Positions 3,395 through 61,535 of a stretch of 64,000 nt of DNA are shown one piece after another. The position numbers were made by a program, and so were the translations under genes. Source of the DNA: Bradyrhizobium sp. YR681 (GTDB lineage Bacteria > Pseudomonadota > Alphaproteobacteria > Rhizobiales > Xanthobacteraceae); contig NZ_AKIY01000192.1 of assembly GCF_000282615.1 (NCBI RefSeq), positions 1 to 64,000 on the forward strand, in the 5' to 3' direction. The notes beneath the pieces were generated by a model that made no database searches, had not been told where the DNA came from, and was given only the letters and a program-made list of their open reading frames with translations. Each line of letters begins with the position of its first letter. Position 1 is the stretch's first letter.

Positions 3395-4689
3395 CGAAGC
3401 TTCAGCGCATCCTCGCGCGCAACCGTCCAGACCTCGATCGGAATGCGCGGGTTTGGCGGCGTGACGTTCGGACGATAGATCTCCTCGATTGCTCTGGCCG
3501 ACGCGATGTCCATGGCGCGCATGGCAAGACCAGCCTGGGCGGACCAGGCGAGCCAGATGCAGAACAGCACAACCGTCGGCCCCCGGGCAAGCCGTTCGGA
3601 TATCTCGTTTGCGGTCATGGCCAGCAGGAAGCCATAGGCAAGACCCGGAAGCGCCAGATGTCTGTCGCGCGCATAAGCGTAGGACAGAACGGCCCCTCCG
3701 ACCGTCACAGCGACGAGCACGAGGAAGACCACCCCGTGCCTGCGGTAGGCTGCGGCTGCGCCAACAAGGATGACCACGGTTGACGCGGCCTCGATGATGA
3801 CTTCGCGGTTGATGCCGCCAACGATCTGCCCCCATGCCGTCGCCCTGACCAGAATGGCAGAAAGCTGGGCAACGACGTTGTACGCATAGAGCTGGTAGAT
3901 CGCACGCCCGGGAAACATCTCGTGCTTCTCTGCGGCGGTTATGAATCCAAAGAAATAGCCGACGTCCTCGTCGGCAGAGGACAGCCCCATCGCAGCGCCG
4001 AGCACAAACGCGCGTATCGCGAAGTATGAGGCGACGACGGACGCAAAGGCCAGAGCGGATGCCACGGGAGCCGTTCGAACGAAATAGATGAGAAAAACGG
4101 CGAGCACCATTCCGTTTTCCTTCGACAGCAGGGCAATCGCGAAGACCGCCGTGCAGATCGCCAGCTTCCGGCCTTCCGGCAGATCCGACGTGATCACGAC
4201 GAGACCGGCAGCAAAGCAGATCAGGATGATCACGTGCGGCAACTCGCTGAGCCACGCCAGCGAGCCGGAAATGAATGGCGAGCCGATCAGGAAGACCGCG
4301 AGCAGGAAGATCATGTCCTGACGGAGCCTGAGTTGCCGTATCAGCTGCAACGAGAGCCCAAGCAGCAAAACGATGGCCGCGAACTGCACGTAACGGTACG
4401 GACGGGGATCCCAGCCGAAGGCCGCGTAGAGCGTCTTGAGAACGGCCTCCGCCACCGGTCGATAGAAGCTGCTTGTCACCGACCATGCCGGCGAGAGCAG
4501 CAGGCTCGAGAAGGAGTCGCGGCCAAGCTTGTTCAGCCAGATCAGATCGTCGACCGTCTCGAACGGCTGGCGGAGCATCACGACGAAAAAGGCCGCCAGG
4601 AGCAGCGCGCTCCCGGCACCCATCAGGAGCCGAAGCCAACCAGCCTGCGTCAGGCTCTTGCGGCTTGCCAATTCATAGCTGAGTGCCAT
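3391..4689 (-). CDS. Polytopic membrane protein, GT-C glycosyltransferase-like
   Basis: A 432-residue protein with about ten hydrophobic segments, the first at residues 22-40. An acidic pair (VDDLIWL) follows the first segment in an external loop, and LLSKENGM lies near residue 190. This layout resembles GT-C glycosyltransferases that use polyprenyl-phosphate sugars, where acidic residues in the first loop are catalytic. That family link is inference; I do not recognise a named family. It is the last gene of a minus-strand run starting at 11354, 27 bases after a methyltransferase gene. It may glycosylate a lipid-linked glycan at the outer face of the inner membrane. Confidence 0.6.
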   Translation of the reverse strand: MALSYELASRKSLTQAGWLRLLMGAGSALLLAAFFVVMLRQPFETVDDLIWLNKLGRDSFSSLLLSPAWSVTSSFYRPVAEAVLKTLYAAFGWDPRPYRYVQFAAIVLLLGLSLQLIRQLRLRQDMIFLLAVFLIGSPFISGSLAWLSELPHVIILICFAAGLVVITSDLPEGRKLAICTAVFAIALLSKENGMVLAVFLIYFVRTAPVASALAFASVVASYFAIRAFVLGAAMGLSSADEDVGYFFGFITAAEKHEMFPGRAIYQLYAYNVVAQLSAILVRATAWGQIVGGINREVIIEAASTVVILVGAAAAYRRHGVVFLVLVAVTVGGAVLSYAYARDRHLALPGLAYGFLLAMTANEISERLARGPTVVLFCIWLAWSAQAGLAMRAMDIASARAIEEIYRPNVTPPNPRIPIEVWTVAREDALKLR

Positions 4690-9833: not shown

Positions 9834-11354
9834 TCAATTCCTGGAGAAATACGCGTCAAAGCCTTTGCCTCCAAGATACGCGTCCCTGAGCATCAGATAG
9901 TACCACGGAGTTTCCGTAACGGAGAACGAGGCTTCGCTCTGCACGTAATGCTGCTGGCGCACTTGCACGTCGTAGGCCCGGGCCTCGGCGACGAGGGCGG
10001 TCTCCGGGATCCATGGCCGCAGCCACAAGATGCCCGCAAGAACCAGCATGAGGCATGACACCCCCACCATGGCGTCGCGGGTCGCGGTCACGCGCTTCTT
10101 GAGCACCCAGGGCCATGCCGCATAGATCAGACCGGTGAACACCGGCAGCTGGAACAGACCGACGTAGCGCGGATAGAGTTCCGACCAGAGATAGCCGACG
10201 CGATAGACCTGGTCGTGCCGCGAAAGGACATAGCAGAGGACCACGACGGCAACCCATCCGAGCAGGATCACGACCGTATCCGAAACCGTAAGCGACAGGT
10301 GCTCGAACCAGCGGACCCGCAGGCGGTCGACCATCGACCACACCGACACCGCCGCTTGCCGAACACGTGGGATTGCGAAGGCCAGGGCGGCGATCCCTAT
10401 CAGCGCGGCGACGATGATGGCGGCCGTCACCCAGGAATATCCCATGATCGAGAACATGCGCTCACGCAACGCCGTCAAGGCCACGGTGGCAAGGATCGGA
10501 ACGAAATAGGCCGGACGAAGCAGCACCTTCGGCTGACGGACGAGGTCGCACGCAATCATGACGCCGAGCAGGATCGGCGCCTCGCTCTGGTGAACGAAGC
10601 TGACGGCAATGGGCGCCCAATAGGCCAGCCCGCCGCGCCCCGACCACCTCAGCGCAAACGCGGCGAAGGTGATCATGGCGCAGAGACAGCGGGGAAAGAT
10701 GGAGAACGGCGAGAACGCACCGGTCGGGTTGATCCACGTGTGGAGACCGAGCCAGAACGTCCGGTGCAGGCTGACGATCGGCGCGGGCGGCACCGGCGTC
10801 TGCTGGTACAGCGACCAGGATATGTTCGGCGTCGGCACGACCCAGTAGAACAGCGCGGCCAGCGCGACGGCGCCGAAGAGCGGCAGGACCAAAGGGACTC
10901 TGGCTGTCGAGAACACGATCACGAAGCATACGAAGGCGAGAAGCGCGCCTGACAGCATGACGCCCCATCGCATGGCATGAAACAGAAACTCGGGGAAATC
11001 CCTTGCGGGATCGGTCAGGCCGAGCGAGCTTTGCACCTTTCCCGCAACATACATCGAGAGCGACGTGAACAGGTAGTTGTTGCAATAGGCGGAGCGCATC
11101 TTCGCGCGATAGACATAGTGTTCGTGGGTTGACGCCGCGACGAGATAATCGGTCAGCCTATCCTGCGGATCGTGCGACGCCTGCCCTGCATATTCGACGC
11201 CGCAGAGATACACATAAAGGATATCCTTATCGAACCGGAGGCCGGCATCGCTGACCCGCCCGAAAATCCCGGTCCAGACCACCAGGGACAACAACAATGC
11301 GATCAGGGAAGCGAGTGTGAATCGCCGCGTCGAAGCCACTGCATCTTCCGTCAT
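9834..11354 (-). CDS. Polytopic membrane protein of unknown family
   Basis: A 506-residue protein with about ten membrane segments, the first at residues 13-32, and a soluble C-terminal tail of about 60 residues. No named family is recognised. The long loop after the first helix, with paired Tyr and Cys residues (YVYLCGVEY and YCNNYLF), and its place beside a polyprenyl-phosphate GT2 suggest a GT-C-like or polymerase-like role. It resembles three other large unassigned membrane proteins in the window (3391, 17189 and 43009) in general architecture only. It is the first gene of the minus-strand run and faces the acyltransferase gene across a 478-base gap. Confidence 0.6.
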   Translation of the reverse strand: MTEDAVASTRRFTLASLIALLLSLVVWTGIFGRVSDAGLRFDKDILYVYLCGVEYAGQASHDPQDRLTDYLVAASTHEHYVYRAKMRSAYCNNYLFTSLSMYVAGKVQSSLGLTDPARDFPEFLFHAMRWGVMLSGALLAFVCFVIVFSTARVPLVLPLFGAVALAALFYWVVPTPNISWSLYQQTPVPPAPIVSLHRTFWLGLHTWINPTGAFSPFSIFPRCLCAMITFAAFALRWSGRGGLAYWAPIAVSFVHQSEAPILLGVMIACDLVRQPKVLLRPAYFVPILATVALTALRERMFSIMGYSWVTAAIIVAALIGIAALAFAIPRVRQAAVSVWSMVDRLRVRWFEHLSLTVSDTVVILLGWVAVVVLCYVLSRHDQVYRVGYLWSELYPRYVGLFQLPVFTGLIYAAWPWVLKKRVTATRDAMVGVSCLMLVLAGILWLRPWIPETALVAEARAYDVQVRQQHYVQSEASFSVTETPWYYLMLRDAYLGGKGFDAYFSRN

Positions 11355-17188: not shown

Positions 17189-19423
17189 TCACTTGTGAAA
17201 TGGCGCAGCGTTTGCGCTGCAATCGATCCTGCGCGCCTCGGTCGGCGTCGCGAGGACGAACACCGTGCGCAATCCCCATCGGGTTGCGTGGGTACAGAGC
17301 TCCTCGTCCGTGCTGGGCTGGGATACGGAGTCGGCCCCGTAGGCGAGAAAACCGTAATTGGGTTCGTTGCGGCACGCGGGTTCCTGGGGACTGAGCCCCC
17401 TGATCATCGGCGCGCCGAGCACCGCGGGAATGAACAGCGAGGCAGTGCGGCAATCCTGCAGATACGACCAGAACAGCTTGTTCTCCGGCGGCACGAACAC
17501 CGCGCTGCGCGGGGTTTCGGCAAGTCCCGCGTCCAGCAGCGTCTTGACCGATTGAGCGCGCGGCACGCGCGCCACGTCGGCCGCGAGCGCACCGCGCGTG
17601 CTGCCGGCCGGAACCAGAAGCGCGACGAGGCGGCGCCACGTCGCTCCTCCCACATCGGTGGCATTGCCGAGATAGCCACTGGCGCGCTGCGCGATCTCCG
17701 CCAATGCCTCGCCGACGACGACGGGACTCCTGATCTTCTGCGGCGTGTCGATCGTCACGAGCACGAGGGCGGCAACGAGGAGCTCCGGCCGGAACAGGTT
17801 GGGCACCTTGCGCTCGAGCCAGGGGCCGGCATAGGCGACAAGAAAGACGACCACGGCGAACGTCCCCACATGGATGAAGTAGTAGGCCGACGCGCCCGGT
17901 ATGACCAGCAGCAGACTGGGAACGCAGGCCGCGATCGCCATGATTCCAAAGGCCTCGGCACAGCGCCGATCGGACCGCGCCCCCGCGATCCACACCGCGA
18001 GGGCGGCGCAGAGCAGCACGACATTTGCCACGAGAGATGGCCAGGCCGCCTCGGGATACTCCCAGAGGAAGTTGAGCGGATCGATCATTGCCAGGCTTCC
18101 ACCCATCATCCTGAAGATGATCCAGGCGCCCAAAGCGGCCAGAACGACGGATGCCGTCCCCAGCATCAGCAACGCCTTCGGACTGAGTGCAAATTGCCGA
18201 AGCAGCATGTATCCGGCTGCAGGCAGAAAGACCACGCCGACGGATACCTTCGACATCTCCATCAGGAGCCCGATCACGGCAACGCACGCGGCCTGAATGC
18301 AGAGCCGGCGGCGCCTCGCGGTTCTCGAGATTTCCCCGAGCAGCGGCAGACCCAGCAGGAAGATGATCGCGGCAAGGAAATAGGATTCCGAAATCAAGTA
18401 GGACGATATGTTCCACATCTCCGTGCAGAACAGCAGGAAGAGCGGAGCGAGCACGAGCAGTTCGCTGGAGCGGAGCCGCGTCTCGCGCGGGCGGAGCAGA
18501 TGGGTGGCGAGGAACAGGCTGAAGAACAACATGGGGACCGCAGCAACCTGCGCTCCGATGAAATAAGCCTGGTAGGTGCCGCTGCCGAACCACTGCCCGA
18601 GACAACCAAGCCAGATATGCGAGAGGAAGTGATAGGTGACCGGCACGAACCCATCCATGCCCATGCTGACCGCGCCGTGCTTGACGATCATGTTGGCGAT
18701 CGCGGCATGGAACAGCGTGTCCAGGTTCTGGACGCCGACGGCGGCCTGCTCGGGCGAGAGCACCGTGGCGAGGCCACGTGCATTGATCACCAGGAAATAA
18801 CCGAGACTTGCAAGCACGCCGAGACCGACCGCCGGCAGCCTGGAGCGCCAAGGCGAGGCGCGTGCGCCGAGGACGGTCTGCCGGATGCCTGCAAACGCAA
18901 GAGCGAGCAGAATCGGATCGATGAGCAGGTCGGCGGCCCACCCGAGCGGCACGACCAGGCATGGCAGAAACAGCGTGGCCAGCGCGGCCATGGGGACCAC
19001 GGCATAGGACCGGCCATGCCGCTCCACCAAGGATAGCGTCAGGATCACCGCGGAAACCATCGCGGCCAGCAGCAGGAAGGCCTTGGCGAAGGCGAGCCAG
19101 TGCGGGCCGCCCAAAGGTCCGCGCACGACCGTACAGGTCACGGCCGACACCGCCGACATCGTCAGGGCGAAGATCGTGACGAACTGGACCGGGCCCACGC
19201 CGGAATCCGCCCGCGGGGCCTGACGTGCCGCCGCGAAGGGAAACCGGGGCTTGAGGAGATTTTCTGCTGCCTGCACGCGCGCCCGTCCCAAGGGTGAGCC
19301 AATTGAGGGTTCCGCAACCCGGCGCTCCGGGACGAGTTGGTCCCGCGTCGCTCCATGACGGTCCCGCGGCGGCCTGCCGCTAGCACACAAGGCCGCCCTC
19401 CGCCACTGCCGGAAACCTTGCAT
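17189..19423 (-). CDS. Large polytopic membrane protein, unknown family
   Basis: A 744-residue protein from the ATG at 19423, with about twelve membrane helices beginning near residue 80 and a C-terminal soluble part rich in Cys. I do not recognise the family. The architecture, many helices plus a periplasmic tail, is that of GT-C glycosyltransferases or polymerases. The start is uncertain. The frame is open to 19567, the 50 residues after 19423 look non-conserved, and a GTG at 19276 (VQAAENLL) would remove them and still leave the first helix intact. It is divergent from the CMP-sugar synthetase gene and upstream of the carbamoyltransferase gene. Confidence 0.6.
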   Translation of the reverse strand: MQGFRQWRRAALCASGRPPRDRHGATRDQLVPERRVAEPSIGSPLGRARVQAAENLLKPRFPFAAARQAPRADSGVGPVQFVTIFALTMSAVSAVTCTVVRGPLGGPHWLAFAKAFLLLAAMVSAVILTLSLVERHGRSYAVVPMAALATLFLPCLVVPLGWAADLLIDPILLALAFAGIRQTVLGARASPWRSRLPAVGLGVLASLGYFLVINARGLATVLSPEQAAVGVQNLDTLFHAAIANMIVKHGAVSMGMDGFVPVTYHFLSHIWLGCLGQWFGSGTYQAYFIGAQVAAVPMLFFSLFLATHLLRPRETRLRSSELLVLAPLFLLFCTEMWNISSYLISESYFLAAIIFLLGLPLLGEISRTARRRRLCIQAACVAVIGLLMEMSKVSVGVVFLPAAGYMLLRQFALSPKALLMLGTASVVLAALGAWIIFRMMGGSLAMIDPLNFLWEYPEAAWPSLVANVVLLCAALAVWIAGARSDRRCAEAFGIMAIAACVPSLLLVIPGASAYYFIHVGTFAVVVFLVAYAGPWLERKVPNLFRPELLVAALVLVTIDTPQKIRSPVVVGEALAEIAQRASGYLGNATDVGGATWRRLVALLVPAGSTRGALAADVARVPRAQSVKTLLDAGLAETPRSAVFVPPENKLFWSYLQDCRTASLFIPAVLGAPMIRGLSPQEPACRNEPNYGFLAYGADSVSQPSTDEELCTHATRWGLRTVFVLATPTEARRIDCSANAAPFHK

Positions 19424-19615
19424 GATGCTGCCCTGTGCCGTATCTAGCAACTCCCGGACGGGGTCGGTCGAGCAGCTCGTCACGGGGGATAAGGGCTGGA
19501 AATACCTCCGGTTTTTCGGCCCGCCAACGGGGCAGACGCGGCATCGGCAGACAGCCCGTGTGAGCATTCGCCGAGATCACCAATCTGCTCTCCCCGGCGA
19601 TCCAGCCTGGCATGG

Positions 19616-20320
19616 ATGAACGTTGATTCAATGAACGCGTCGCCCGGCAAGCAGAGCATTGCGGCACTGGTTCCCTTGCGCGGGGGCTCAAAGTCCATTC
19701 CGGGCAAGAACATCAAGCCGTTTTGCGGTGCGCCGCTGTGCGCCTGGACGCTGAGAGCCCTGCTCGGCTGCGACTTTATCTCGCGGGTGTTCGTGTCGAC
19801 CGACAGCGAGGAGATCGCGGCGGTGGTGAGATCCGTCGATGCCCGGATCATCGTCCATCCCCGTCCCGCGCATCTGGCGACGGACAGCGCGACCACAGAG
19901 GAGGCGATCTACGACCTGATCGCCTCCCGCGACATCTCGGAAAAATATCTGGTGACCGCGCAGGTCACGAGCCCGCAGACGACCAGCCGCGACGTTACGG
20001 AGGCCATCTCCCGGCTGCTCGCCAGCGGCGCCGATTCGCTTCTCACCTGCGTCCGGACCCGGCGGTTCTTCTGGAATGACGACGGCACGCCGATCAACTA
20101 CGATCCGGCGAGGCGCCCGCTGCGCCAGCAATGGAACGGCACGCTGATGGAGAACGGCGCATTCTACATTTCGACCGTGGATCGTCTGCGCGCCGGCAGC
20201 GCGCGCCTGCACGGCAAGATCGCCGTCCACGAAATGGATGAGAGCGCGAGCATCGAGCTCGACGAGCTCTCCGATTGGGAGACGCTCGAAGCCGCGTTCC
20301 GCAGGAACATCGCAAGATGA
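19616..20320 (+). CDS. CMP-sugar synthetase, acylneuraminate cytidylyltransferase family
   Basis: A 234-residue enzyme that activates a nonulosonic or similar acid with CTP to a CMP-sugar. The P-loop-like signature PLRGGSKSIPGKNIKPF lies at residues 20-36, and FVSTDSEEIAAV and the late acidic block SIELDELSDWE fit the family. It is one of two such enzymes in the window; the other (24867) matches PseF better. Its last four bases overlap the start of the CBS-NeuB fusion gene, so the two should act in one pathway, synthase then activator. The sugar could be legionaminic, neuraminic or a related acid. Start at the first ATG; an in-frame ATG at 19631 is possible. Confidence 0.85.
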   Translation: MNVDSMNASPGKQSIAALVPLRGGSKSIPGKNIKPFCGAPLCAWTLRALLGCDFISRVFVSTDSEEIAAVVRSVDARIIVHPRPAHLATDSATTEEAIYDLIASRDISEKYLVTAQVTSPQTTSRDVTEAISRLLASGADSLLTCVRTRRFFWNDDGTPINYDPARRPLRQQWNGTLMENGAFYISTVDRLRAGSARLHGKIAVHEMDESASIELDELSDWETLEAAFRRNIAR

Positions 20321-22569
20321 TCATCGACAGAGACCTTCAGAGCTATCTGGTCCACGAGGACGCCTCGATCCAGGAGGCGGCGAGCAAGGTCGCGGCGAAC
20401 CGGCGCGAGATCGTGTTCTGCGTCGACGGCAGCGGCCGGCTGCTCGGCAGCCTCTCGAACGGCGACATCATCCGCTGGATCGGCGCAGGCGCCGCCTCCG
20501 GCGTGCAGGCCGCGGTCGGCGACCTCTGCAACCGCCGCGTCCGCAGCGCGGTTGCCGGCGACCGTGAGACTGCCAATCGGCTCTTGCGCGATGTCCTCTA
20601 CGTGCCTCTGGTCGACGCCGAGCGCCACGTCGTCGGCGTCGCCCGCCAGCGTCATCCCGGCGAAGGCATCCGGATCGGCGGCCGCACCATTGCGGAGGAG
20701 AACCCGACCTTCCTGATCGCGGAGATCGGCAACAACCACAATGGCAGCCTGGAGGCCGCCTTCGCCCTGATCAAGGCGGCGGCGGAAGCCGGCGCGGATG
20801 CCGCGAAATTCCAGATGCGCGACATGGCCGGCCTCTACGGCAAGCGCACCAAGGGCCAGAGCGAGGATCTCGGCACCGAATATGTGCTCGACCTGCTCGA
20901 CCGCTTCCAGCTCAGCGACGAGGAGCTGTATCGCTGCTTCGACTATTCGGCTTCGCTCGGCATGGAGCCGCTCTGCACCGCCTTCGACGTCAACAGTGCG
21001 GACAAATGCCGCGCCTATGGATTGAAGGCGATCAAGACCGCGTCCGCCGACCTCACCAATCACGAGCTGCTGCGCCACATCGTCGACCAGCGGATCCCGA
21101 TCATCTGCTCGACCGGCATGTCGACCGAGGACGAGATCCGCGAGACCGTGAAGCTGCTCCAGACGTCGGGCGCGGAGTACGTCATGCTCCACTGCAACTC
21201 GACCTATCCGGCGCCGTTCCGCGACATCAACCTGAAATACATGCTGCGCCTCCAGGAGCTGTGCGAGAGCGTGGTCGGCTATTCCGGGCACGAGCGCGAC
21301 GTCTTCGTGTCGGTCGCAGCAGTCGCGATGGGCGGGCGCCTGATCGAGAAGCATTTCACGCTGGCGCGCGACCAGGAAGGCAACGACCACAAGGTCAGCC
21401 TGCTGCCGCATGAATTCAAGCGCATGGTCGAAGGCGTGCGCCAGGTCGAGGATTCGCTCGGCACCGCGCTGCCGCGCATTCTCAGCCAGGGTGAGAAGGC
21501 CAACCGCATCAGCCTCGGCAAATCGATCTTCGCGGTCGAGAACATCGAGGCCGGCGCGACGATCACGCGCGAGATGATCGAGATCCGCAGCCCGGGCCAG
21601 GGCCTGTCACCGAACCGCATCGACGAGGTGATCGGACTGAAGTCGCCGCGCGCGATCCCGGCGCAGACGCCGCTCTATCCATCCGATATCTCGGAACTCG
21701 GCGAGCTCTCCGCCGGCGGGCAGATCAACTTCAGGCGGCCCTGGGGCGTTCCGGTGCGCCATCGCGACGCCGACAAGCTGATCGCGGCGATCAGCCCCGA
21801 TTTCGTCGAGTTTCACCTGAGCTATCGCGACCTCGGCATCAACGATTCCGACTTTCTTGCCGACAGCTATGAGTGCGGCCTGATCGTGCACGCGCCGGAG
21901 CTGTTCGAGGGCGACCACGTGCTCGACCTGACGATACCGGACGATGAGTATCGCACACGATCGATCGCGGAGATGAAGCGCGTCATCGCCAAGACCAAGG
22001 CGCTGGCGCAGCGCTTCCGCAACGACGGCCCGGTCGGCATCATCTGCAATGTCGGCGGCTTCTCGTCCACGCGCTTCCTGACCGCCGAGGAACGAGGGGT
22101 TCGCGAGGCGCATTTGCGTGCCAGCGTCCGCGAGCTCGCCGATCCCGCGGTCGAGCTTTGGCCGCAGACCATGCCGCCCTATCCCTGGCATTTCGGCGGC
22201 CAACGCTATCACAATCTGTTCGTCTCCAGCGACGACATCGCGCGCAGCTGCCGCGAGCTCGGGCTGCGCATCTGCTTCGACACCTCGCATTCCCAGCTCG
22301 CATGCACCGAGAACCGCTGGTCGTTCGACGAGTTCATGGAAGAGATCGGCACTTTCGTCGCCCATGTCCACATGGCCGACGCCCGCGGCGTCGACGGCGA
22401 GGGCCTCCAGATCGGCGAAGGCGAGATCGATTTCGGCAACGTGTTCCGGGTGCTGAACCGGCAGGCGCCGCAGGCCTCGTTCATCCCGGAAATCTGGCAG
22501 GGACACGAGAACGACGGCGAAGGGTTTCGCGTCGCGCTGCAGCGCCTGTCGAGCTTCGAGGACCGGTGA
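20317..22569 (+). CDS. Four-part fusion: CBS pair, NeuB synthase, SAF domain, xylose-isomerase-like TIM barrel
   Basis: A 750-residue cytosolic protein. Residues 1-110 form a CBS pair (LSNGDIIRWI, VPLVDAERHVVGVAR). Residues 120-370 are a NeuB-type synthase condensing phosphoenolpyruvate with an N-acyl hexosamine, with FLIAEIGNNHNG, AKFQMRDM, CSTGMST, LHCNSTYP and GYSGHERD. Residues 395-460 are the SAF/antifreeze-like domain (KSIFAVENIEAGATIT). Residues 475-750 are an AP-endonuclease-2/xylose-isomerase-like barrel with the metal-site candidates CFDTSHSQL, HVHMADARG and FIPEIWQGHEND. NeuB alone is about 350 residues. The start ATG overlaps the upstream stop (ATGA). The added barrel may make or isomerise the acceptor sugar, and the CBS pair may sense nucleotides; both are inference. 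No frameshift is needed, so it is a real fusion. Confidence 0.88.
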   Translation: MIIDRDLQSYLVHEDASIQEAASKVAANRREIVFCVDGSGRLLGSLSNGDIIRWIGAGAASGVQAAVGDLCNRRVRSAVAGDRETANRLLRDVLYVPLVDAERHVVGVARQRHPGEGIRIGGRTIAEENPTFLIAEIGNNHNGSLEAAFALIKAAAEAGADAAKFQMRDMAGLYGKRTKGQSEDLGTEYVLDLLDRFQLSDEELYRCFDYSASLGMEPLCTAFDVNSADKCRAYGLKAIKTASADLTNHELLRHIVDQRIPIICSTGMSTEDEIRETVKLLQTSGAEYVMLHCNSTYPAPFRDINLKYMLRLQELCESVVGYSGHERDVFVSVAAVAMGGRLIEKHFTLARDQEGNDHKVSLLPHEFKRMVEGVRQVEDSLGTALPRILSQGEKANRISLGKSIFAVENIEAGATITREMIEIRSPGQGLSPNRIDEVIGLKSPRAIPAQTPLYPSDISELGELSAGGQINFRRPWGVPVRHRDADKLIAAISPDFVEFHLSYRDLGINDSDFLADSYECGLIVHAPELFEGDHVLDLTIPDDEYRTRSIAEMKRVIAKTKALAQRFRNDGPVGIICNVGGFSSTRFLTAEERGVREAHLRASVRELADPAVELWPQTMPPYPWHFGGQRYHNLFVSSDDIARSCRELGLRICFDTSHSQLACTENRWSFDEFMEEIGTFVAHVHMADARGVDGEGLQIGEGEIDFGNVFRVLNRQAPQASFIPEIWQGHENDGEGFRVALQRLSSFEDR

Positions 22570-22684: not shown

Positions 22685-24866
<2,182 letters not shown>

Positions 24867-24870
<4 letters not shown>

Positions 24871-25556
24871 AGATCGCCGTCATCCCCGCCCGCGGCGGCA
24901 GCAAGCGCATCCCGCGCAAGAACATCCGCCCGTTCTGCGGCAAGCCCATCATCGCCTATTCGATCGAGGCGGCGCAGGCGAGCGGCCTGTTCGACGAAAT
25001 CATCGTCTCCACTGATGACGCTGAGATCGCCGAGGTGGCGCGCCAGTTCGGCGCGACCGCGCCCTTTGTGCGGCCGAAGGAGATCTCCGACGACCACACC
25101 GGGACTTCAGCGGTCGTCAAGCACGCCGTCACCTGGTTCATCGAACGCGGTGACGCCGTCACCCATGTCTGCTGCATCTACGCGACCGCACCGCTGATCC
25201 AGGCCCGCTTCCTGCGCGAGGCTTATGACGCCCTCACCGGCTCCGACGCCGCCTTCGCATTCTCGGTGACCAGCTACGCATTTCCGATCCAGCGCGCCCT
25301 GCGCATGACCTCCGCCGGACGCGTCGATCCGTTTCACCCCGAGCACCGCCTCACGCGGTCGCAGGACCTGGAGCCGGCCTATCACGACGCCGGCCAGTTC
25401 TACTGGGGCACGGCGGCCGCCTTCCTCGAGGACGTGCCGATCTTCTCCGAGCGCTCCATCGGGCTCGTGCTGCCGCGGCATCTCGTGCAGGACATCGACA
25501 CCGTCGAGGACTGGGAGCAGGCGGAATACATGTTCCGCGCGATCAACCGGGGCTAG
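24867..25556 (+). CDS. pseF: Pseudaminic acid cytidylyltransferase, PseF
   Basis: A 229-residue CMP-sugar synthetase that activates pseudaminic acid with CTP, the last cytosolic step. The GTG start at 24867 overlaps the pseC stop (GTGA) and directly precedes the conserved N-terminus KIAVIPARGGSKRIPRKNI. IIVSTDDAEIAEVA and the C-terminal QDIDTVEDWEQAEYMF are typical of PseF. The longer open frame upstream of the GTG is shadow within pseC. Its TAG stop shares a CTAG with the stop of the convergent gene at 25553, leaving no space for a terminator. Confidence 0.93.
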
Positions 25557-26683
25557 CTCTCGGCTGCGAGCAGCGGACGGAGGAATGCGGCGAGGTCGCC
25601 TTCCCGGAACAGATGTCCGGGTATCCCCGCGGCCGCGGCCGCCTCGATATCGCGCATGTTGTCGCCGACGAGCAGGCTGCCCTCGATCCGCACCGGCCAG
25701 GACTTGATGCAATCCAGGATCATGCCGGGAGCTGGCTTGCGCCGGTCGCTCACGCGGCGATACGCCTCGACCGTTCCCTCCTCGTGATACGGACAATACT
25801 GGAAGTCGTCGACATGGGCGCCGATCGCGGCCAGATCGCTGCTCATCCAGTCGTGCAGCCGGTGAATGTCCTCAATGCCATAATAGCCGCGCGCGACGCC
25901 CGACTGATTGGTCACGACGAAAGCATAATAGCCGAAATCGTTGCAGAGCCTGATCGCCTCGCGCGCACCGGGCATCCATTCGAAATCCTCGATCTTGTAG
26001 AGATAGTCCTTGTCGACGTTGAGGACCCCGTCGCGGTCGAAGAACACCGCCGGTCGCCGCAGCCTGTCGGGCAGCTCGATCCGGGCGTGGGTGAGGCCGG
26101 TGGGATCGCTGACATCGACGAAGAAGCCGCCACCGCTGATGGCCTCGAGCTGCCCGTCCGCGATCAGGCGCGGCACGACGTGGCTTTCGAGCGAACTTGA
26201 ACTCTCTCCGACATAGTCGAGGATCCTGCGATCCAGGCAGTAGATGCTGCTCTCGTCAGGAGGCAGACTCGCGCCCGGCTTCAGCGCCACCCGGGCGATG
26301 GCCGCGGAGGCATGTGCATGGCTGGCGAGATCGAGCAGGTTGACGGGGAACAGAGAGCAGCCATTCAGCAGGTAGAAGCGCGCCTGCAATCGCTCCGCGG
26401 CATATGTCAACGCGCCGGCGCTGCCGCAGTCGGAGGACGCCGCCACGACCGAGAGGCTTGCGCCTCGCCACCGCCTGCCATGATAGCGCTCGGCGACGTC
26501 TTCCACGTCCCGCCCTGTGAGCAGGAGGATCTCTTCTATCGTCGGATAGCGTGACAGTTCGTCGAGCAGATAGTCGAGAAACGGCCGGCCGGCGACGTCC
26601 TGTAGCGGTGCCGGAATCGGCTGCACCAAAGCGCCGGGTCGCGCATCCGCATTGCCGATCAGGACGACGGCCTGCTTTGCCAT
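25553..26683 (-). CDS. Nucleotidyltransferase-like domain fused to a GmhB-type HAD phosphatase
   Basis: A 376-residue fusion. The N-terminal half, residues 1-215, has the fold pattern of sugar-1-phosphate nucleotidyltransferases (GRPFLDYLLDELSRY, IEEILLLTG). Its first loop reads LIGNADARPG instead of the Gly-rich GGxGTRL signature, so activity is doubtful. The C-terminal half is a HAD-IIIA phosphatase with FFDRDGVLNVD near residue 225, VVTNQSGVARG, RKPAPGM and LLVGDNMRDIEA. GmhB enzymes have a zinc loop with C-x-H then C-x-C; here CPYH is present but the second Cys pair is missing. A GDP- or ADP-heptose type role is possible. It lies 8 bases downstream of the Wzy-Wzz fusion gene. Confidence 0.82.
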   Translation of the reverse strand: MAKQAVVLIGNADARPGALVQPIPAPLQDVAGRPFLDYLLDELSRYPTIEEILLLTGRDVEDVAERYHGRRWRGASLSVVAASSDCGSAGALTYAAERLQARFYLLNGCSLFPVNLLDLASHAHASAAIARVALKPGASLPPDESSIYCLDRRILDYVGESSSSLESHVVPRLIADGQLEAISGGGFFVDVSDPTGLTHARIELPDRLRRPAVFFDRDGVLNVDKDYLYKIEDFEWMPGAREAIRLCNDFGYYAFVVTNQSGVARGYYGIEDIHRLHDWMSSDLAAIGAHVDDFQYCPYHEEGTVEAYRRVSDRRKPAPGMILDCIKSWPVRIEGSLLVGDNMRDIEAAAAAGIPGHLFREGDLAAFLRPLLAAES

Positions 26684-26691: not shown

Positions 26692-28956
26692 CTAGCGCGT
26701 GCGGGCCAGGCTCGGCCTGCTCAGCATGGTGTAGAGCAGCAGCGCCAGCAACACAATTGCTCCGGCGAAGAAGGCGTGGCGAACCGGACGCGGCGAAACC
26801 TGCCTGATCGTGACATCGTCGCTGAGCGCCGCTGGAAAGCTCTTGGACGGCCCAAGCCGCGTCGCAAGCGCACGCCGGTCGTTGGTTGCGGCCGCCAGCT
26901 TCTCTTCGTTGCGCGCCTGGAGATCGAGCAGCCATACTCGCCGCAGCGCCAGCGATGCGGGGTCGGCCGACGCCGAAGGCGAGATCGAATCCGCCGACGC
27001 CAGCGACTCGCGCACCTTCATCAGGCTGGCGATATTGGCCTCGACCATTGCCATCTGGATATTGAACTCCGCAAGAAGGGGAGTTCGAATCTTCTCCTGG
27101 TCCGCGTTCAGCACACGCACGGCCGCCTGCAAGGCGGCGTTCGCGGCCTGCTCGCTGGCGCCGTAGACGGAGAGCGACAGAAGATCGAACGTCTGCGGCC
27201 GCACGCTCAGGCTGTCCAGAACCTGTCCCTTGTCGTCGCCCGATGACGGGGGCATAGCGTCCTCGACGCGACGTTTGAAAGCGGCTGAACCCATGTGGAT
27301 CGCCGTCGACTGCGCCTGCATGACGTCCGCGCCATCGAGCCGGCCGAGCCGCATCGTGGCTTCCGCGACGTAGAGGGGGGCACGCGCGCGATCCGCCAGG
27401 AACACGACGAGCATCGCAACCAGCGTTCCCACAATGAGCAGCGGCAGCCGCGAGCGGACCGTCTGGTTGAAATTGGCAAGCATCCCGCCAACATAGGCGA
27501 CGCTCGATATGGAAGCCGACGTGTCGTTCATGGTGTGGCTCCTCGCGACTTCGGCCGCGACATCAGTTGAGTTCGGCGACAATGCCACTGCCATCCGGCT
27601 TGCCCGCCACCTGTCCTCCATGACGTAGACAAGAACCGCCATCGCCAGTTTCACCATGAAGGTGACCTGGATGAAGGAGTTCACCATCCCCGAGACGACA
27701 CAGATCGAAACCGCATACAATATCGGCGTCAGAAAAAAGCAAGTGACATAACGCTCCTGGATCATGCAGCGCGTCAGCAAGAACATGAATTCGGAAAACA
27801 ATATGGCCGAACCCGCAACGAGGAAAAATCCTTCCACGGGACCACCAACTTCGAACAGCACTTCAGGCCATCCCCCGGTGTAGGTCTGCCCCTGCGTAAG
27901 CAGGGTGTATGTCCGGTCGAGCGGAAGCGACTGCTCCATCAGGAATTGCATGGTGGAATTGGACGACGGATTGAACGGTGCGACGAACAATTTGAACATG
28001 GCGAGGGCACCGTTCCAGTCGCCGTGAACGAAGACCCGCTCATAGGTGGCCCACCACATCTCCCCCTGCTGCACCAGGATGCGCTGGGTGAGCTTGAATC
28101 GCAGCTGGTCGATCTCCGATCCGCGAACGACGGTGTAGGAGTGAATCAACGCGACGACGATCAGGGCGACAAGTCCGGCTGCCGCAAGGGCGAAGTAACG
28201 CAGGATCCGCGGGAACCTGCGTTGATCGGCGCCTTCCCGAAGCAGCAAGGCGCCGACCGGAATGATGAAGAACGACGAATAGGCATAGAACGACGAGAAG
28301 CGGTGTCCCACCACGAACAGGTAGATCAGCACAGCGCCGAACAGCGCCGCAAAGCGCAGGTCAAATCCGCGGCCGCGCATCGCCGGCATAGTCATGAACA
28401 GGCCGAGCTGGAACGCCAGCATCGCGCCCCATTCGATCAGCCGCTGATGCAGCGGGCCACCATATTGCCTCGTATAGTCGAACCGCTCGATGCCGGCGAA
28501 CAACGGTATCGGCCCACGCAGCCTCAGTTCGATCCAGAGCCCGAGCACATAGGCCAGCACGGTCCAAAAGGCGATATTGGACAGATCGAAGCGGCCTGGT
28601 GGCAGCATCGCGGCCAGCCCGCCGCGCGTGCCGGAAGCGAGCGCCCGCAGCCGCTGCGGACGGAACGACACCAGGAGCGCCGCGATCACGAGAGCCTGGG
28701 ACGCAACGAACGGCAGCGCAGCCAGACCTGGGCCGACATACCGCTCCAACTGCTCGGAGAAGACCGGCCCGAAAGCGTCGATGTAAAAGACCGAGATCAG
28801 CCGCCAGACGAAGGCGAAGAGGACCAGGAAAGCGATCATCACGAGCCCGGGCCGGCTCACTGCGATCCATGCCATGACCGCCAGGATGAATCCGATCGCG
28901 ACGATGTCCAGCAGCGCCGGAAGCAAGGTCTCGAACGACCACCACGAAACGGACAT
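26692..28956 (-). CDS. Fused O-antigen polymerase-like (Wzy) and chain-length regulator-like (Wzz) protein
   Basis: A 754-residue inner-membrane protein. Residues 1-455 hold about twelve helices and long loops of an O-antigen-ligase/polymerase-like protein. Residues 476-754 look like a Wzz/PCP-1 protein: one helix at about 504-522 (LLIVGTLVAMLVVFLAD), a periplasmic helical part and a last helix at about 730-748. The two parts are in one open frame. At the junction, codon 476 is an ATG at 27531 with an AGGAG site 7 bases upstream, so a separate Wzz-like product could also be made. Polymerase and chain-length control normally come from separate genes. The family assignment rests on topology and context, as these families diverge fast. 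Confidence 0.72.
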   Translation of the reverse strand: MSVSWWSFETLLPALLDIVAIGFILAVMAWIAVSRPGLVMIAFLVLFAFVWRLISVFYIDAFGPVFSEQLERYVGPGLAALPFVASQALVIAALLVSFRPQRLRALASGTRGGLAAMLPPGRFDLSNIAFWTVLAYVLGLWIELRLRGPIPLFAGIERFDYTRQYGGPLHQRLIEWGAMLAFQLGLFMTMPAMRGRGFDLRFAALFGAVLIYLFVVGHRFSSFYAYSSFFIIPVGALLLREGADQRRFPRILRYFALAAAGLVALIVVALIHSYTVVRGSEIDQLRFKLTQRILVQQGEMWWATYERVFVHGDWNGALAMFKLFVAPFNPSSNSTMQFLMEQSLPLDRTYTLLTQGQTYTGGWPEVLFEVGGPVEGFFLVAGSAILFSEFMFLLTRCMIQERYVTCFFLTPILYAVSICVVSGMVNSFIQVTFMVKLAMAVLVYVMEDRWRASRMAVALSPNSTDVAAEVARSHTMNDTSASISSVAYVGGMLANFNQTVRSRLPLLIVGTLVAMLVVFLADRARAPLYVAEATMRLGRLDGADVMQAQSTAIHMGSAAFKRRVEDAMPPSSGDDKGQVLDSLSVRPQTFDLLSLSVYGASEQAANAALQAAVRVLNADQEKIRTPLLAEFNIQMAMVEANIASLMKVRESLASADSISPSASADPASLALRRVWLLDLQARNEEKLAAATNDRRALATRLGPSKSFPAALSDDVTIRQVSPRPVRHAFFAGAIVLLALLLYTMLSRPSLARTR

Positions 28957-29038: not shown

Positions 29039-29923
29039 TCAAATGCCCATGACGAGCTTCTGGAGCCCGGTCGTATCAGGCGTCGCGAAGAAGGGACGCC
29101 GCGCTTGCTTCGGTGCCATCCGCGGGAAGCAGAAGAAGGTCGCGGTGTACAGCAGGCGACCATGTCCCGGACCCATCCGGCTTCCCATATGCAAGCACTT
29201 GGTCGTGTCGACCATGAACGCCGCCAGCCGCGGCGCCTTCATCACCTTGATGTCGCTGCGCGGCACCTTGCTGAACACCTGCTCGTCGGGGAAGTGGCTC
29301 GACAGCAGCGGATAGCCGAACTTGTCGGTCGCCTGCCGCGGCAGGAAGGTGAAGGGACCGTCGCCGTCCTCTTCGACGTCGGTCAGGTAGCTGAAGAACT
29401 TGATGACCCGGACGTCGTCATGGTCGCGATGCCAGAGCTGCGACGATGCGAGTTCCTCGCCGGTGTAGCGCGAATAGGACAACAGGACATAGTCGAGCCA
29501 GGGGATTTCCCCGAGCGCCGCGGACACGACGTTGATGACCGGCGCCTGGAGCGCATACTGCACGAAGACGTTGTCGGCGCTGAGCTGGCCGTCCTGCATC
29601 TCCGCGTCGAGCAGCCGCACCCAGAACTTCTTCCAGGTCGAGTTCTGCCCTGCTTCCGCGGCTTCGATGTTCTGAAGCCGCACCTGACCGGCTGCGGCGA
29701 TCTGCTGCTGGATATTGGGATCGATCAAATCTGTGACGATCGCGTAGCCGTCCCGATTGAGGTCCTCGGCCCTGGCACGCTCGGCTGCGGTCACGTTGAG
29801 CAACTGCGCCTGGCGGCGCCGCTCGCGCTTCTCGTTCAGATGCCAGGTGTTGACGCCGGCCTTCACGGCCCACCGGAGCGGCGACCGATTCACGTGCCAA
29901 AGTGCTCTGGACATCAATCCCAT
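29039..29923 (-). CDS. PhyH-like Fe(II)/2-oxoglutarate-dependent oxygenase
   Basis: A 294-residue cytosolic protein with the pattern of phytanoyl-CoA dioxygenase relatives. A likely metal triad is His and Asp in LWHRDHDDVRVIKFF near residue 185 and a distal His in KCLHMGSRMGPGH near residue 255. SDIKVMKAP and TKCLHMGSR are consistent with the double-stranded beta-helix core. Members hydroxylate varied small molecules, including antibiotics and sugars. The frame opens at a TTG (29974), but the ATG at 29923 after a GGGTGGGG stretch is preferred. It lies 82 bases upstream of the Wzy-Wzz gene and could hydroxylate a sugar or lipid of the same glycan. Confidence 0.72.
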   Translation of the reverse strand: MGLMSRALWHVNRSPLRWAVKAGVNTWHLNEKRERRRQAQLLNVTAAERARAEDLNRDGYAIVTDLIDPNIQQQIAAAGQVRLQNIEAAEAGQNSTWKKFWVRLLDAEMQDGQLSADNVFVQYALQAPVINVVSAALGEIPWLDYVLLSYSRYTGEELASSQLWHRDHDDVRVIKFFSYLTDVEEDGDGPFTFLPRQATDKFGYPLLSSHFPDEQVFSKVPRSDIKVMKAPRLAAFMVDTTKCLHMGSRMGPGHGRLLYTATFFCFPRMAPKQARRPFFATPDTTGLQKLVMGI

Positions 29924-30070
29924 GTTGCCCCACCCAATCGTGCCGGTGATAAGTTTCGCATCCCTCGCAGCCAAGGGGCGATCGCGCGGCTCGGATTAGC
30001 AAATCCCCCTATAGCGAGCAACCGCAGAGTGTGTGCCGGGAACTGGACGACGGCAGGCGGTAGAATGCGT

Positions 30071-31579
30071 CTAACGATGGGTCATCGTGCGGGCGACCTT
30101 GCCGAACATCTCGCGATCCCTGCGGGTCAGAATCAGCATGACGCTCAGCGCCCACGCGGCAACGCACCCCGTCGCACCGGCGACGATCAGCGCGAGCAGC
30201 GTCTGCGGCGTCACATAGGTCTTGTAGGCAATCACCATCGCCGCGAGGATCGCAGCCACCAGCGCCTGCCTGGCGGCATGTTGCCAGAACAGCCTCCGCG
30301 GCAGACTCATGAACCTCAGCATGCGATGCATCAGGACCGGCGTGAGCACGATATAGGACACTACCCAGCCGAGGATGAAGGCGCGATCCTGGAACCAGCG
30401 GATCGCGATCGCGGTGACGACATATTGCACCAGCACTTGCGAATACAGGAAGCGGTTGCTGAAGCGCATGAAGTCCTCTCGCACCATCAGCGTGGTCTGG
30501 CCTGCGCTGACCATGACGTTGGCGGCGGGCACGACCAGCGCGAGCGCCAGCCATGGCCATTGCCCGGCACTCTCGGGCCCAACCCACACCTTCAGGATCT
30601 CTTCCGAGTACAGCGCCATCAGCACCACGATCGGAATCACCATCGCGGCCGGCAGCACGAAGCTGTTGCGGCCGAGCAGCTGCAAACGCCGAACGTCGGT
30701 CTTCTCGTCGATATGCGCCGAGACCGGCAGGATCGCGGAGAACAGCGGGCTCAGCACCGCTTTCATGAAACGCGGCAGCCGCATCAGGAGATCGTAGGCG
30801 CCGACCTGGGCGGGGCCGTAAAGCGCGCCGATCGCGAGCGGAATGATGGTCTGCTGCAACACGCCGCCGATGCGGGCATTGAACATCAGCCAGCCCCGAT
30901 ACACGAGGTCATGGCGCGTCTCCGGGCTCCATGAGCTGAAGCGGAGCCTGGTGCGGCGTGCCGCAAGCGCAACGATGAGCGCGAGCACGAGATATTTGAC
31001 GACCACGGTGGCGAGATAGGCGTAGGCGATCCATTCGAAGGAGCGATTGCTCCAGACCGCAAGATAGATCGCTGCGACATAGAGCAGGTTGCCTCCAACC
31101 TCGGTCATGCGCAGCCAGCCATATTCCTCGAACCCCTTCAGCGCGCCCTCCATCACCAGGCCGACGAAGGCGAGCGGCGTGATCAGCGCAGTGACCTTCA
31201 GGATCGAGACGAAGGCCGACACGTCCTCCGGCGCGACCTTGAAGATCCCGGTCAGCGCGGGCGCCGCGAACCACAGCACGACGCTCGACACCAGACCGGT
31301 GACGACAGCCACCATGGTCAGGAACGAGACTCTCTCGCTCGCCGACGCCCAATCGCCGAGCCGGCCGCGGGCGACCATCTGGGTCGTGGTCTCGGATACG
31401 CCGAAATCGATCAGGGACAGAAAGCCGCTCGGCAGGAAGGCGCGCGCCAGCGCAATCAGCCCGAGCACCGAAAGACCATAGAATTTTGCGATCAGGCCAA
31501 CGGAAAACAGCCCGAGCACGCCGGCAAGGCCGAAGGCCACGGCGGAGATCGCGGTGTTGTGCAGGAATCTGCGAAGCAC
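30071..31579 (-). CDS. Oligosaccharide flippase, Wzx/MATE-like family
   Basis: A 502-residue protein with 12-14 predicted helices that would move undecaprenyl-linked repeat units across the inner membrane. It begins with a GTG at 31579 (LRRFLHNTAISAVAFGLAG). GLSVLGLIALARAF, FGVSETTTQMVARG and the mid-protein PRFMKAVLSPLFSAILP match the Polysacc_synt/MurJ-type family. It is one of two flippases in the window; the other is at 59834. It may be transcribed with the PhyH-like and Wzy-Wzz genes. The 5' end has been partly duplicated upstream (see the repeat at 31541). Confidence 0.85.
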   Translation of the reverse strand: MLRRFLHNTAISAVAFGLAGVLGLFSVGLIAKFYGLSVLGLIALARAFLPSGFLSLIDFGVSETTTQMVARGRLGDWASASERVSFLTMVAVVTGLVSSVVLWFAAPALTGIFKVAPEDVSAFVSILKVTALITPLAFVGLVMEGALKGFEEYGWLRMTEVGGNLLYVAAIYLAVWSNRSFEWIAYAYLATVVVKYLVLALIVALAARRTRLRFSSWSPETRHDLVYRGWLMFNARIGGVLQQTIIPLAIGALYGPAQVGAYDLLMRLPRFMKAVLSPLFSAILPVSAHIDEKTDVRRLQLLGRNSFVLPAAMVIPIVVLMALYSEEILKVWVGPESAGQWPWLALALVVPAANVMVSAGQTTLMVREDFMRFSNRFLYSQVLVQYVVTAIAIRWFQDRAFILGWVVSYIVLTPVLMHRMLRFMSLPRRLFWQHAARQALVAAILAAMVIAYKTYVTPQTLLALIVAGATGCVAAWALSVMLILTRRDREMFGKVARTMTHR

Positions 31580-35303: not shown

Positions 35304-36749
35304 TCAAGTGACATGAGGTTGTGAAGCCGCAACATGCTGCTCTCGGGGTCGGCTCGCTTCCGTCAATTGCAGGCTGGCGCCGCTCACTGCCCTGGCCATC
35401 CGGCGCGTATCGCCGACAACCTTGCGGACTGAAAACCGCCGGCCATCCACCGACGCAGCATCTATCCTGCCGAGCGCGGCACCAACCATGTCCGCCGCGA
35501 AGGTCTTGGCAAAGCGGCGCCCCTCAATCTCCGCCGAACCAAATCGGCGACGCAGGGCCGAGCCCGCCCTGTAGCCAAGCGCCGTCCGGGCCATGGCAAC
35601 CGCACGGCCGCGGAGCGAGGGCCGCGGCAAAGTGCCGCAACGCACCTTGCCATGCGCCGCCGCGATGGTCTCGAGGATGACATCGGCGACGCGGATCGAG
35701 CTCTTGCCGTCGATGGCCGTGAAAAGATCGCTGAGGATCTGGCGGCGGAATTGCGCGGTTTCCTCGGCGACCGAGGGCAAATGCGTCCCCACGCCCTGCT
35801 CTACCAGCGCGATTAGATCGGCTTCCGATGCGACCGGCCGGCTGACTTGTGCCGCGGCCTGAACACGCAAGGCCGGCGTATTGAACCACTCCATGCTCAG
35901 GGGCTCGACATTCAGCATCGTGGCTTCAATGGCCGTCGAGCAGTTCTGGTGAATCAGCAGCCGCGCCCCATTGATCCATTCGATCGACGTGCCTTCCTGT
36001 CGCACCTCGAAATTCGGATAGGCGGCCAATGCGTCGTAGGACTTGATGTTTTCGAACGGATGCGGACGCAGCACGAAATGCACGTCGGGGAAATGCTGGG
36101 CCAGCTTCATCGACATCTGGAGCGTCGATTGATAGGCGTGCCTCGCTTCGACAATCACCTGATTTGCATAGTCTCTGGCAAAGCCGGCGTTGACGATGGT
36201 CTCGATCTCGTCGTCCGGGCCCCTCGAAAACCGCGGATTGACGCTCGGGAAATTCGTGTTGAGGAGCACATAGCCCGCGCGAACCGACGGCTTGGGCAGA
36301 GCCGCGCGCCACGGCCCCGCGCAAAAATCGTAGCGCGGACAGCCGGTCGCATGCAGGATATGCGCAGGCACCGTCCCGTGCTTGAGGAAGGCAGCGCGTT
36401 GCGCCTGGCCCCAGACACAATAGAGGTCGAGCAGATCGGGAGAGCCCGCGTTCTTGACCAGCCTGGCGAATTCGTCGGCATTGTTGCCGCCGATGCCTTC
36501 GGTATCCAGCACGCCGACCAGGATGCCTGCCCGCTTGTAGCGCTTGATCAGGTCGGCATTGTTCGGTCGCGTATAATTCACCAGCACGAGATCGGGCTGC
36601 AGCGCCAGAACGTCGAATCCCTGTTCGTACATGGGAACGAGGGTGACCTTCACGCCGCGCGTCGCGAGTTCCCGCCCGAGCAGGACGAGACCCTCGAGGT
36701 CGCGCAGCGGATTGTCGACGATCAGACAGACATGCGGCTGGTCAGGCAC
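35304..36749 (-). CDS. Surface carbohydrate biosynthesis protein (GT-B-like)
   Basis: A 481-residue protein resembling the 'surface carbohydrate biosynthesis protein' family found with nonulosonic acid genes. VCLIVDNPLRDLEG at the N-terminus, VLRPHPFENIKSY near residue 235 and LLIHQNCSTAIEA near residue 270 follow the pattern of GT-B-like capsule glycosyltransferases. It is a good candidate for transferring the pseudaminic-type residue from its CMP donor. The start is decided by the ribosome site: GAGGA lies 6 bases before the GTG at 36749. An ATG at 36755 sits directly against it, too close. The start lies inside the pseI 3' end. Confidence 0.75.
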   Translation of the reverse strand: MPDQPHVCLIVDNPLRDLEGLVLLGRELATRGVKVTLVPMYEQGFDVLALQPDLVLVNYTRPNNADLIKRYKRAGILVGVLDTEGIGGNNADEFARLVKNAGSPDLLDLYCVWGQAQRAAFLKHGTVPAHILHATGCPRYDFCAGPWRAALPKPSVRAGYVLLNTNFPSVNPRFSRGPDDEIETIVNAGFARDYANQVIVEARHAYQSTLQMSMKLAQHFPDVHFVLRPHPFENIKSYDALAAYPNFEVRQEGTSIEWINGARLLIHQNCSTAIEATMLNVEPLSMEWFNTPALRVQAAAQVSRPVASEADLIALVEQGVGTHLPSVAEETAQFRRQILSDLFTAIDGKSSIRVADVILETIAAAHGKVRCGTLPRPSLRGRAVAMARTALGYRAGSALRRRFGSAEIEGRRFAKTFAADMVGAALGRIDAASVDGRRFSVRKVVGDTRRMARAVSGASLQLTEASRPREQHVAASQPHVT

Positions 36750-37854
36750 GGGCATTCCTCGACGCGGCCGGTCGTGGCTCCGCAACCGCGTCGCTGGCTT
36801 GTGTCAGAAGGTCCCAGCTCATTGGCGTACCGCGGCGAACAGCCCGGCCGACGCGCTTGCCGATCAGGGTGTCGAAATATTTCGGCGGCAGCCCGAGGCC
36901 GGGCCGGATGATGCGCAGGTTCTTCTCGCTCAGCACGTCGCCGGCGGCGAGATCCTCCGTCACATAGAGCGAACGGCGGAAGGTCAGCGACTTGCGCTCC
37001 TTCTCGGTCAGCTCGTACTGCACCCTGCCAAGCGCCTGCCAGGCCCGCTCCGTCTCGACCACGAGCGCGGCCATCTCGTCCGGCTCCATCGAGAACGTCG
37101 AGTCCACGCCGCCATCGGCGCGGGCAAGCGTGAAGTGCTTCTCGATCACGCTTGCACCGAGCGCGACACTCGCGACCGAAGCGCCGATGCCGAAGGTGTG
37201 GTCCGACAGCCCCACCTGGCAACCGAACAGCGCCCGCATGTGGGGTATCGTCAAGAGATTGGTGTCCGACGGCGAGGACGGATAGGTGCTGGTGCATTTG
37301 AGCAGCACGAGCTGCTCGCAGCCGCCCCCCCTCGCCGCGCGAACCGCCTCGTCGATCTCGGCCGCGCTCGCCATGCCGGTCGAGATGATCATCGGCTTGC
37401 CGGTCGCGGCGACCTTGCGAATGAGCGGCAGGTCGGTGTTCTCGAACGAGGCGACCTTATAAGCGGGAACGTTCAGGCTCTCGAGGAAGTCGACGGCGGT
37501 GGCGTCAAACGGCGTCGAGAACGCAATCATGCCGTGCGAACGCGCCCGTTCGAAGATCGGGGCATGCCACTCCCAGGGCGTATAGGCCTCCTGGTAAAGA
37601 TTGTGCAACGCGCGCCCGGTCCACAGACTGTTCGGATCGTCGATCACGAACTCGTCGCTCGCAAGATTGAGCGTCATGGTGTCGGCGGTGTAGGTCTGGA
37701 GTTTGAGCGCATGTGCGCCCGCCTTTGCCGCCGCATCGACGATCGCGAGCGCCCTGTCCAGCGACTGGTTGTGGTTTCCGGACATCTCCGCGATGATGAA
37801 CGGCTGGTGAGCCTGTCCAATCGCCCGGCCCGCGATCTTGATCGTGTCACTCAT
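36742..37854 (-). CDS. pseI: Pseudaminic acid synthase, PseI
   Basis: A 370-residue NeuB-family enzyme condensing phosphoenolpyruvate with 2,4-diacylamino-2,4,6-trideoxy-L-altrose to give pseudaminic acid. FIIAEMSGNHNQSLD at residues 19-33, LKLQTYTADTMTL, STPFDATAVDFLE, IISTGMAS, CTSTYPS and GLSDHTFGIGAS follow PseI. A C-terminal SAF domain starts near residue 290 (FRRSLYVTEDLAAGDVLS). Compared with the NeuB part of the fusion protein at 20317, the substrate-binding blocks differ (SGNHNQ versus IGNNHNG), which supports two different nonulosonic acids. The C-terminal tail is slightly longer than usual. Confidence 0.93.
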   Translation of the reverse strand: MSDTIKIAGRAIGQAHQPFIIAEMSGNHNQSLDRALAIVDAAAKAGAHALKLQTYTADTMTLNLASDEFVIDDPNSLWTGRALHNLYQEAYTPWEWHAPIFERARSHGMIAFSTPFDATAVDFLESLNVPAYKVASFENTDLPLIRKVAATGKPMIISTGMASAAEIDEAVRAARGGGCEQLVLLKCTSTYPSSPSDTNLLTIPHMRALFGCQVGLSDHTFGIGASVASVALGASVIEKHFTLARADGGVDSTFSMEPDEMAALVVETERAWQALGRVQYELTEKERKSLTFRRSLYVTEDLAAGDVLSEKNLRIIRPGLGLPPKYFDTLIGKRVGRAVRRGTPMSWDLLTQASDAVAEPRPAASRNARA

Positions 37855-61408: not shown

Positions 61409-61535
61409 GCCGCATCCTTCCCGGCAAGCCCCGGCGCGCGATCGCCGGTTGATTCCCGCAATGAAAGCCGCCAATTTGGCGCGATCGGATTGGGACGTTG
61501 AAGCCGCGTCTTAAGGCGGTTAGACAGCTTAGGCA

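Follow-up and report, generated by a model that had tools for sequence, protein, structure and literature searches.

The DNA analysed here, called the window, is a 64,000-nt stretch of contig NZ_AKIY01000192.1 from Bradyrhizobium sp. YR681. It contains a single 754-codon open reading frame (26692-28956, minus strand) that runs through two halves without an intervening stop codon. The N half (27532..28956, minus strand) comprises codons 1-475, and the C half (26692..27531, minus strand) comprises codons 476-754 plus the stop. At the junction, codon 476 is an in-frame ATG (27529..27531, minus strand) that aligns with the start of a separate downstream gene in relatives. It is preceded at a spacing of 7 nt by the motif AGGAG (27539..27543, minus strand), and about here the window differs from relatives by one base in length. 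The frame, the ATG at 27531 and the AGGAG 7 bases upstream had been described in an earlier note on this DNA, and all three are present in the sequence.

Upstream of the fused frame lies a Wzx-type flippase gene (30071..31579, minus strand), recognized by its Polysacc_synt match (PF01943, E 5.2e-11) and by synteny. The intervening gene (29039..29974, minus strand) has no Pfam match and is oxygenase-like by eye only, and its synteny is kept in most loci. The downstream neighbor (25553..26683, minus strand) starts 8 nt past the fused stop codon and joins a HAD hydrolase part to a part that, by eye, is sugar-nucleotidyltransferase-like. Farther on, genes for a PseB-like dehydratase, a PseC-like aminotransferase and a CTP transferase occupy 22691..25556 (plus strand), as judged from scans of the ORFs at 22691 and 24570, inspection by eye of the ORF at 23689, and synteny. 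The Pse names, given by eye, are our assumption; these are probably nonulosonic-acid sugar genes belonging to the same cluster. Nine Bradyrhizobium loci (L041-L049) share the order Wzx, N, C, HAD gene, CTP transferase, PseC, PseB, and the synteny comparison showed the N gene with no detected C gene in L050 and L051. A flippase, a putative polymerase, a co-polymerase (PCP) and sugar-nucleotide genes are found together here, as in Wzx/Wzy glycan clusters. The cluster also holds two NeuB-type synthase genes, one at 36742-37854 (NeuB by Pfam) and one at 20275-22569, the latter a 764-aa frame in which CBS-like, NeuB-like and TIM-barrel-like parts appear by eye to be joined.

The N half is a probable Wzy-type polymerase

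Residues 330-435 of the N half match DUF6418 (PF19982; Pfam E 1.2e-12). A crude hydropathy scan of residues 1-455 gave about 10 hydrophobic segments, and the AlphaFold2 model is nearly all-helical (pLDDT 83, pTM 0.83). These agree with the 10-14 membrane helices that passages of a 2025 review give for Wzy polymerases (PMC12004945). A comparison with solved folds in the PDB and viral folds in BFVD yielded no credible match (lowest Foldseek E values 0.078 and 1.3, highest VIA Z 6.3), and searching solved structures by sequence with both the N and the C profile yielded nothing credible. The review also states that no Wzy structure had been defined (PMC12004945), and therefore the absence of a fold match to the N half is uninformative. 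The alignment with the TIGR04370 polymerase profile was not significant (hhalign probability about 0.4%, E 0.16 and 0.14), the comparison profile being a small one of 6 sequences, 3 of them above the family cut-off. PF14296 matched in one of 60 genomes, too few for building a profile. One occurrence of the RX10G motif of P. aeruginosa Wzy loops is conserved in the N half (R52 in 33/33, G63 in 32/33), with R52 in a predicted helix; three other occurrences are not conserved.

The earlier note had called the N half Wzy-like and proposed separate profile searches of the two halves. Its helices, context and synteny fit that description, but no polymerase fold or profile match was found: the searches identified DUF6418 and no Wzy profile in the N half, and PF02706 went unmatched in the C half. 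On the basis of its topology, its place between the Wzx flippase and the PCP, and the conserved synteny, we conclude that the N half is probably a Wzy-type polymerase. Multi-helix membrane proteins with no Pfam or credible NCBIfam match are also encoded elsewhere in the window (3391-4689, 9834-11354, 17189-19567, 53141-54460 and 59834-61474), and one of these might be a further polymerase or a ligase.

The C half has the fold of a Wzz-like co-polymerase

The AlphaFold2 model of the C half, built with 19 relatives, consists of a first transmembrane helix, an alpha/beta part, a long helical hairpin and a second transmembrane helix (pLDDT 81, pTM 0.58). The PCP architecture is of this kind: a periplasmic alpha/beta domain, carrying a long helical hairpin, between two transmembrane helices. 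The top Foldseek match was Wzc (E 5.1e-8), with WzzE and KpsE lower, and 37 of the 37 chains at E<=0.001 were Wzc, WzzE, WzzB or KpsE, with TM-scores to the query of at most 0.54. With VIA-align, Wzc, KpsE and WzzE each reached a Z score of about 11 across 167-256 residues, on a scale where unrelated long-helix proteins reach 9.1; for WzzE (8bhw), Z was 11.0 with an rmsd of 7.0 over 256 aligned residues. The predicted fold is that of a Wzz/Wzc/KpsE-type co-polymerase, which bears out the Wzz-like label given earlier, and suggests a putative role for the C half as a chain-length regulator. Although the fold is common to Wzc and KpsE, the 279-aa C half lacks the kinase domain of Wzc. Its setting differs too: the scanned genes included no ABC exporter, and the C half sits behind a polymerase-like protein.

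At the sequence level, the C half appears as a divergent branch of the PCPs. The Pfam Wzz profile PF02706 does not match it at E<=5, and gives sub-threshold matches in three of four relatives scanned (L024, 0.0041; L002, 0.026; L029, 0.3) and none in the fourth. The C gene of L029 also matches GNVR (E 0.00087). A TuaF match is weak (E 0.0064). In the YR681 genome, PF02706 matches four other places, in open frames of 703-834 aa, and the fused locus is not among them.

The two genes are separate in relatives

With the full fused protein as query, matches were found in 40 of 265 genus genomes, YR681 included. A second collection contributed 11 loci, ten of which, judged by length, are contigs already in the first set. 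The N gene was examined in 31 of the 39 matched genus genomes beside YR681 and in L049 from the second collection, for a total of 32 relatives; of the eight remaining matched genomes, six stand at 30-37% identity and two are fragmentary. Among N relatives with at least 54% identity, the C gene is adjacent in 19 of 22, and it is a separate gene in all 19. These split pairs (L002-L006, L022-L031, L033-L035 and L049) are 55-81% identical to the window in N and 30-66% identical in C. Thus, Bradyrhizobium DUF6418 and PCP pairs have the gene order of the window, a synteny common to nine long-flanked loci, but form two genes in 19/19 cases where the window has one frame. The claim that two adjacent and formerly separate genes had fused with the old start kept is supported by this comparison, and the survey of homologous loci for split and fused forms that the earlier note called for revealed no other fused form among the genomes scanned.

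The split genes overlap by 4 nt (ATGA) in nine relatives and by 8 nt in two, and are separated by a 3-25 nt gap in eight. The relative phase of the N and C genes takes all three values among relatives, indicating that length changes at the junction are common in nature. The C-gene start in each relative was chosen nearest to that of the window, so the 'conserved M1' of the C gene is partly built in. In L007 (G054), the N gene is followed by a gene that is nucleotidyltransferase-like by eye, and in L032/L051 (G286) by a short gene that is methyltransferase-like by eye; no PCP-like gene is adjacent in either case, so the pair is not obligatory. The L008/L050 locus ends at a contig edge. For ten N relatives that are more distant (28-33% identity), tblastn with a cut-off of 1e-5 detected no C gene.

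No second stop-free long frame beyond that of YR681 was found among the 265 genus, 385 class and 391 family genomes scanned, although not every candidate in a genome was scored and cases may have been missed. The PF19982 scan matched 2 of 385 class genomes and the A4 scan 17 of 391 family genomes, YR681 included in both. A profile of the C half matched 3 of 296 family and 5 of 199 order genomes, again with YR681 included, in a weak survey that scored few candidates; its low-scoring matches comprised one in a 290-aa frame and four in frames of 717-860 aa.

A one-base length difference probably joins the frames

The alignment shows one base fewer in the window than in L002 and L003 just 5' of the second start, and a one-base shortening at this place joins the N and C frames. 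Six extra bases farther upstream relative to L002 and L003 preserve the frame, and the window is two bases shorter than L004 at the junction. L056 was used in alignment A6 only. The joining is therefore best attributed to a length difference that shifted the frame, and not to a lost stop codon as had been proposed. Loss of the stop by substitution was rejected because the alignment points to a length change, and programmed frameshifting or recoding was rejected because no frame change is needed. In L022 (G104; 2887-2895), the N and C genes are in-frame, and only a TAG and a single codon stand between them ahead of the ATG. This locus is one substitution away from a fused state, and its long frame exists only if the TAG is read through.

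As a comparison set for the ribosome site at codon 476, we took the 379 further in-frame ATGs inside 51 window ORFs, omitting the first and last 90 nt of every ORF. In 5 of them the computed anti-SD duplex is no weaker than that of codon 476, and 2 carry AGGAG, GGAGG or AAGGA at a spacing of 4-10. Such a site is thus uncommon at internal codons and exceeds what chance would give. The computed anti-SD pairing at the window junction is -7.9 kcal/mol compared to a mean of -6.55 kcal/mol for the relatives, and is equaled or exceeded in 3 of 19. The three closest relatives have GAGAGG at the place of the window's GCGAGGAG, ten bases before the start, and AGGAG is absent there. Thus, the one-base change probably altered the ribosome site as well.

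Accelerated C-half change on the window branch

Both halves are under constraint, with dN/dS values between the window and L002 of 0.17 for N and 0.39 for C, and a C-half range of 0.29-0.45 across three window pairs. Branch rates were compared with L004 as outgroup. The window branch is faster in the C half (38 v 22 against L002, chi2 4.27; 45 v 22 against L003, chi2 7.90) and not in the N half (33 v 24 and 30 v 27, respectively). In a four-way count, window-only differences in the C half numbered 31, compared to 10 each for L002 and L003; the corresponding N-half counts were 19, 15 and 18. Residues 20-38, adjoining the junction, contain eight of the 31 window-only C-half changes (p 0.025 in a post hoc scan), but relatives likewise vary somewhat more here, with 2.37 v 2.01 distinct residues per column. 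The first 15 residues contain no window-only change. The window is placed differently in the C tree and the N tree, so recombination could contribute to the C-half pattern.

Discussion

We consider it likely that the locus carries a real, lineage-specific fusion of probable Wzy (DUF6418) and PCP/Wzz genes, in which read-through has replaced stop-start coupling. The ancestor would have had adjacent and mostly closely coupled Wzy-like and PCP/Wzz genes in a Wzx/Wzy-type surface-glycan cluster, and a change of one base in length, within the non-conserved tail of the Wzy-like gene, would have placed both genes in one frame. Sections of PMC10666635 describe short gene overlaps as coupling translation by termination-reinitiation and as enriched in subunits of one complex. 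The typical -4 nt ATGA overlap of such coupling (described in parts of PMC10666635 and PMC3711429) is present in 9/19 split relatives. Removal of the stop would make reinitiation impossible at the junction and leave read-through and independent initiation. Ribosomes that once terminated and restarted at the overlap would now read through to give a membrane-embedded Wzy-Wzz chain, and independent initiation at codon 476 may still yield some free Wzz. It is plausible that fused and free products are both made.

Arg-containing segments are typical of the cytoplasmic side. Arg residues flank the junction on both sides (449-454 and 501-503), and both flanks are presumably cytoplasmic. This topology should permit normal insertion of the Wzy-Wzz chain.

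The principal alternative to a real fusion is a sequencing or assembly error, such that the organism has two ATGA-overlapping genes and the draft misses one base. The draft comprises 351 contigs, the fusion is seen in this single genome, and a one-base change separates it from comparable relatives that are split in 19/19 cases. Observation in one genome leaves room for a single assembly error, or for a private, transient mutation. However, among 58 same-strand frame switches in 317,098 bases of the same assembly (the window plus 15 own-genome stretches; 5 of 20 stretches, under 4 kb, were omitted), none lacked a stop/start explanation. The detector flagged 40 of 67 simulated deletions, all placed 200 nt or more within a coding segment. 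This puts the 95% upper bound on indel error at about 1.8e-5 per coding base, which for a junction of 20 bases amounts to about 4e-4, or somewhat more once selection of this case for its oddness is allowed for. The junction contains no homopolymer and lies inside a 90-kb contig, and natural length changes are frequent at the N/C junction among relatives. Together, the low error bound and the natural junction variation favor a real fusion in this one genome; an assembly error is an unlikely source of the fused frame, and the least probable explanation considered here. The same detector left 4 of 64 frame switches unexplained in 400,000 bases of the single-contig relative G009 (L099, L110, L116 and L117), which are possible pseudogenes or recoding sites.

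A real fusion could also be nearly neutral or slightly harmful, which overlaps in part with our preferred explanation. The fused chain would be made but inert or degraded, function would depend on Wzz initiated at codon 476 or on no adjacent regulator, and the allele would be young and transient. The lack of a second fused case among the genomes scanned fits such an allele, as do the faster change of the Wzz half but not the N half on the window branch and the two relatives that manage without an adjacent PCP. The continuing constraint on the Wzz half, its unchanged first 15 residues and the absence of stops or frameshifts from either half speak against it, and we give it a low, though appreciable, probability. 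A lower one goes to the sub-case in which the fusion was selected, with one Wzy tethered to one ring subunit guaranteeing assembly or shifting the modal chain length. The C-half acceleration, densest next to the junction, and a junction ribosome site stronger than in most relatives would suit selection, but the variability of residues 20-38 in relatives and the possible recombination indicated by the trees offer other accounts of that pattern.

Returning to a real fusion with read-through, the consequences for complex assembly depend on subunit numbers. According to PMC10030265, the ECA system has a WzyE/WzzE complex in which a ring of about eight Wzz surrounds one Wzy. As in that system, the window encodes a polymerase-like protein and a PCP near a Wzx flippase, and the PCP fold matches WzzE. 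In contrast, WzyE and WzzE are separate proteins at a ratio of about 8 Wzz to 1 Wzy, whereas one frame gives 1:1 unless free Wzz is made. An obligate 1:1 fusion is thus a poor fit to the ratio given in that source and unlikely to be optimal. Because eight fused copies would bring eight polymerases per ring, three possibilities follow: most Wzz is free, the ring is built differently here, or the fused protein works poorly. The earlier suggestion that fusion is a direct way to fix the Wzy:Wzz ratio would sit badly with these reported numbers unless most Wzz is free. If the complex resembles WzyE/WzzE, a working ring would contain one fused chain and mostly free Wzz subunits. We offer only tentatively the more specific model, which is possible but doubtful, that the locus makes a Wzy-Wzz chain plus free Wzz from codon 476, with exactly one tethered Wzy per ring beside the free subunits and with composition and chain length set by the rate of internal initiation versus read-through, not by two genes.

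Our searches of openly licensed PMC text turned up no natural Wzy-Wzz fusion. Competing models for how Wzy and Wzz share a complex and set chain length are set out in parts of PMC5748678. A natural fusion with an internal start would be a ready-made construct for testing Wzy/Wzz tethering and stoichiometry, and the locus suggests a single-base change as a route from a coupled gene pair to a fusion.
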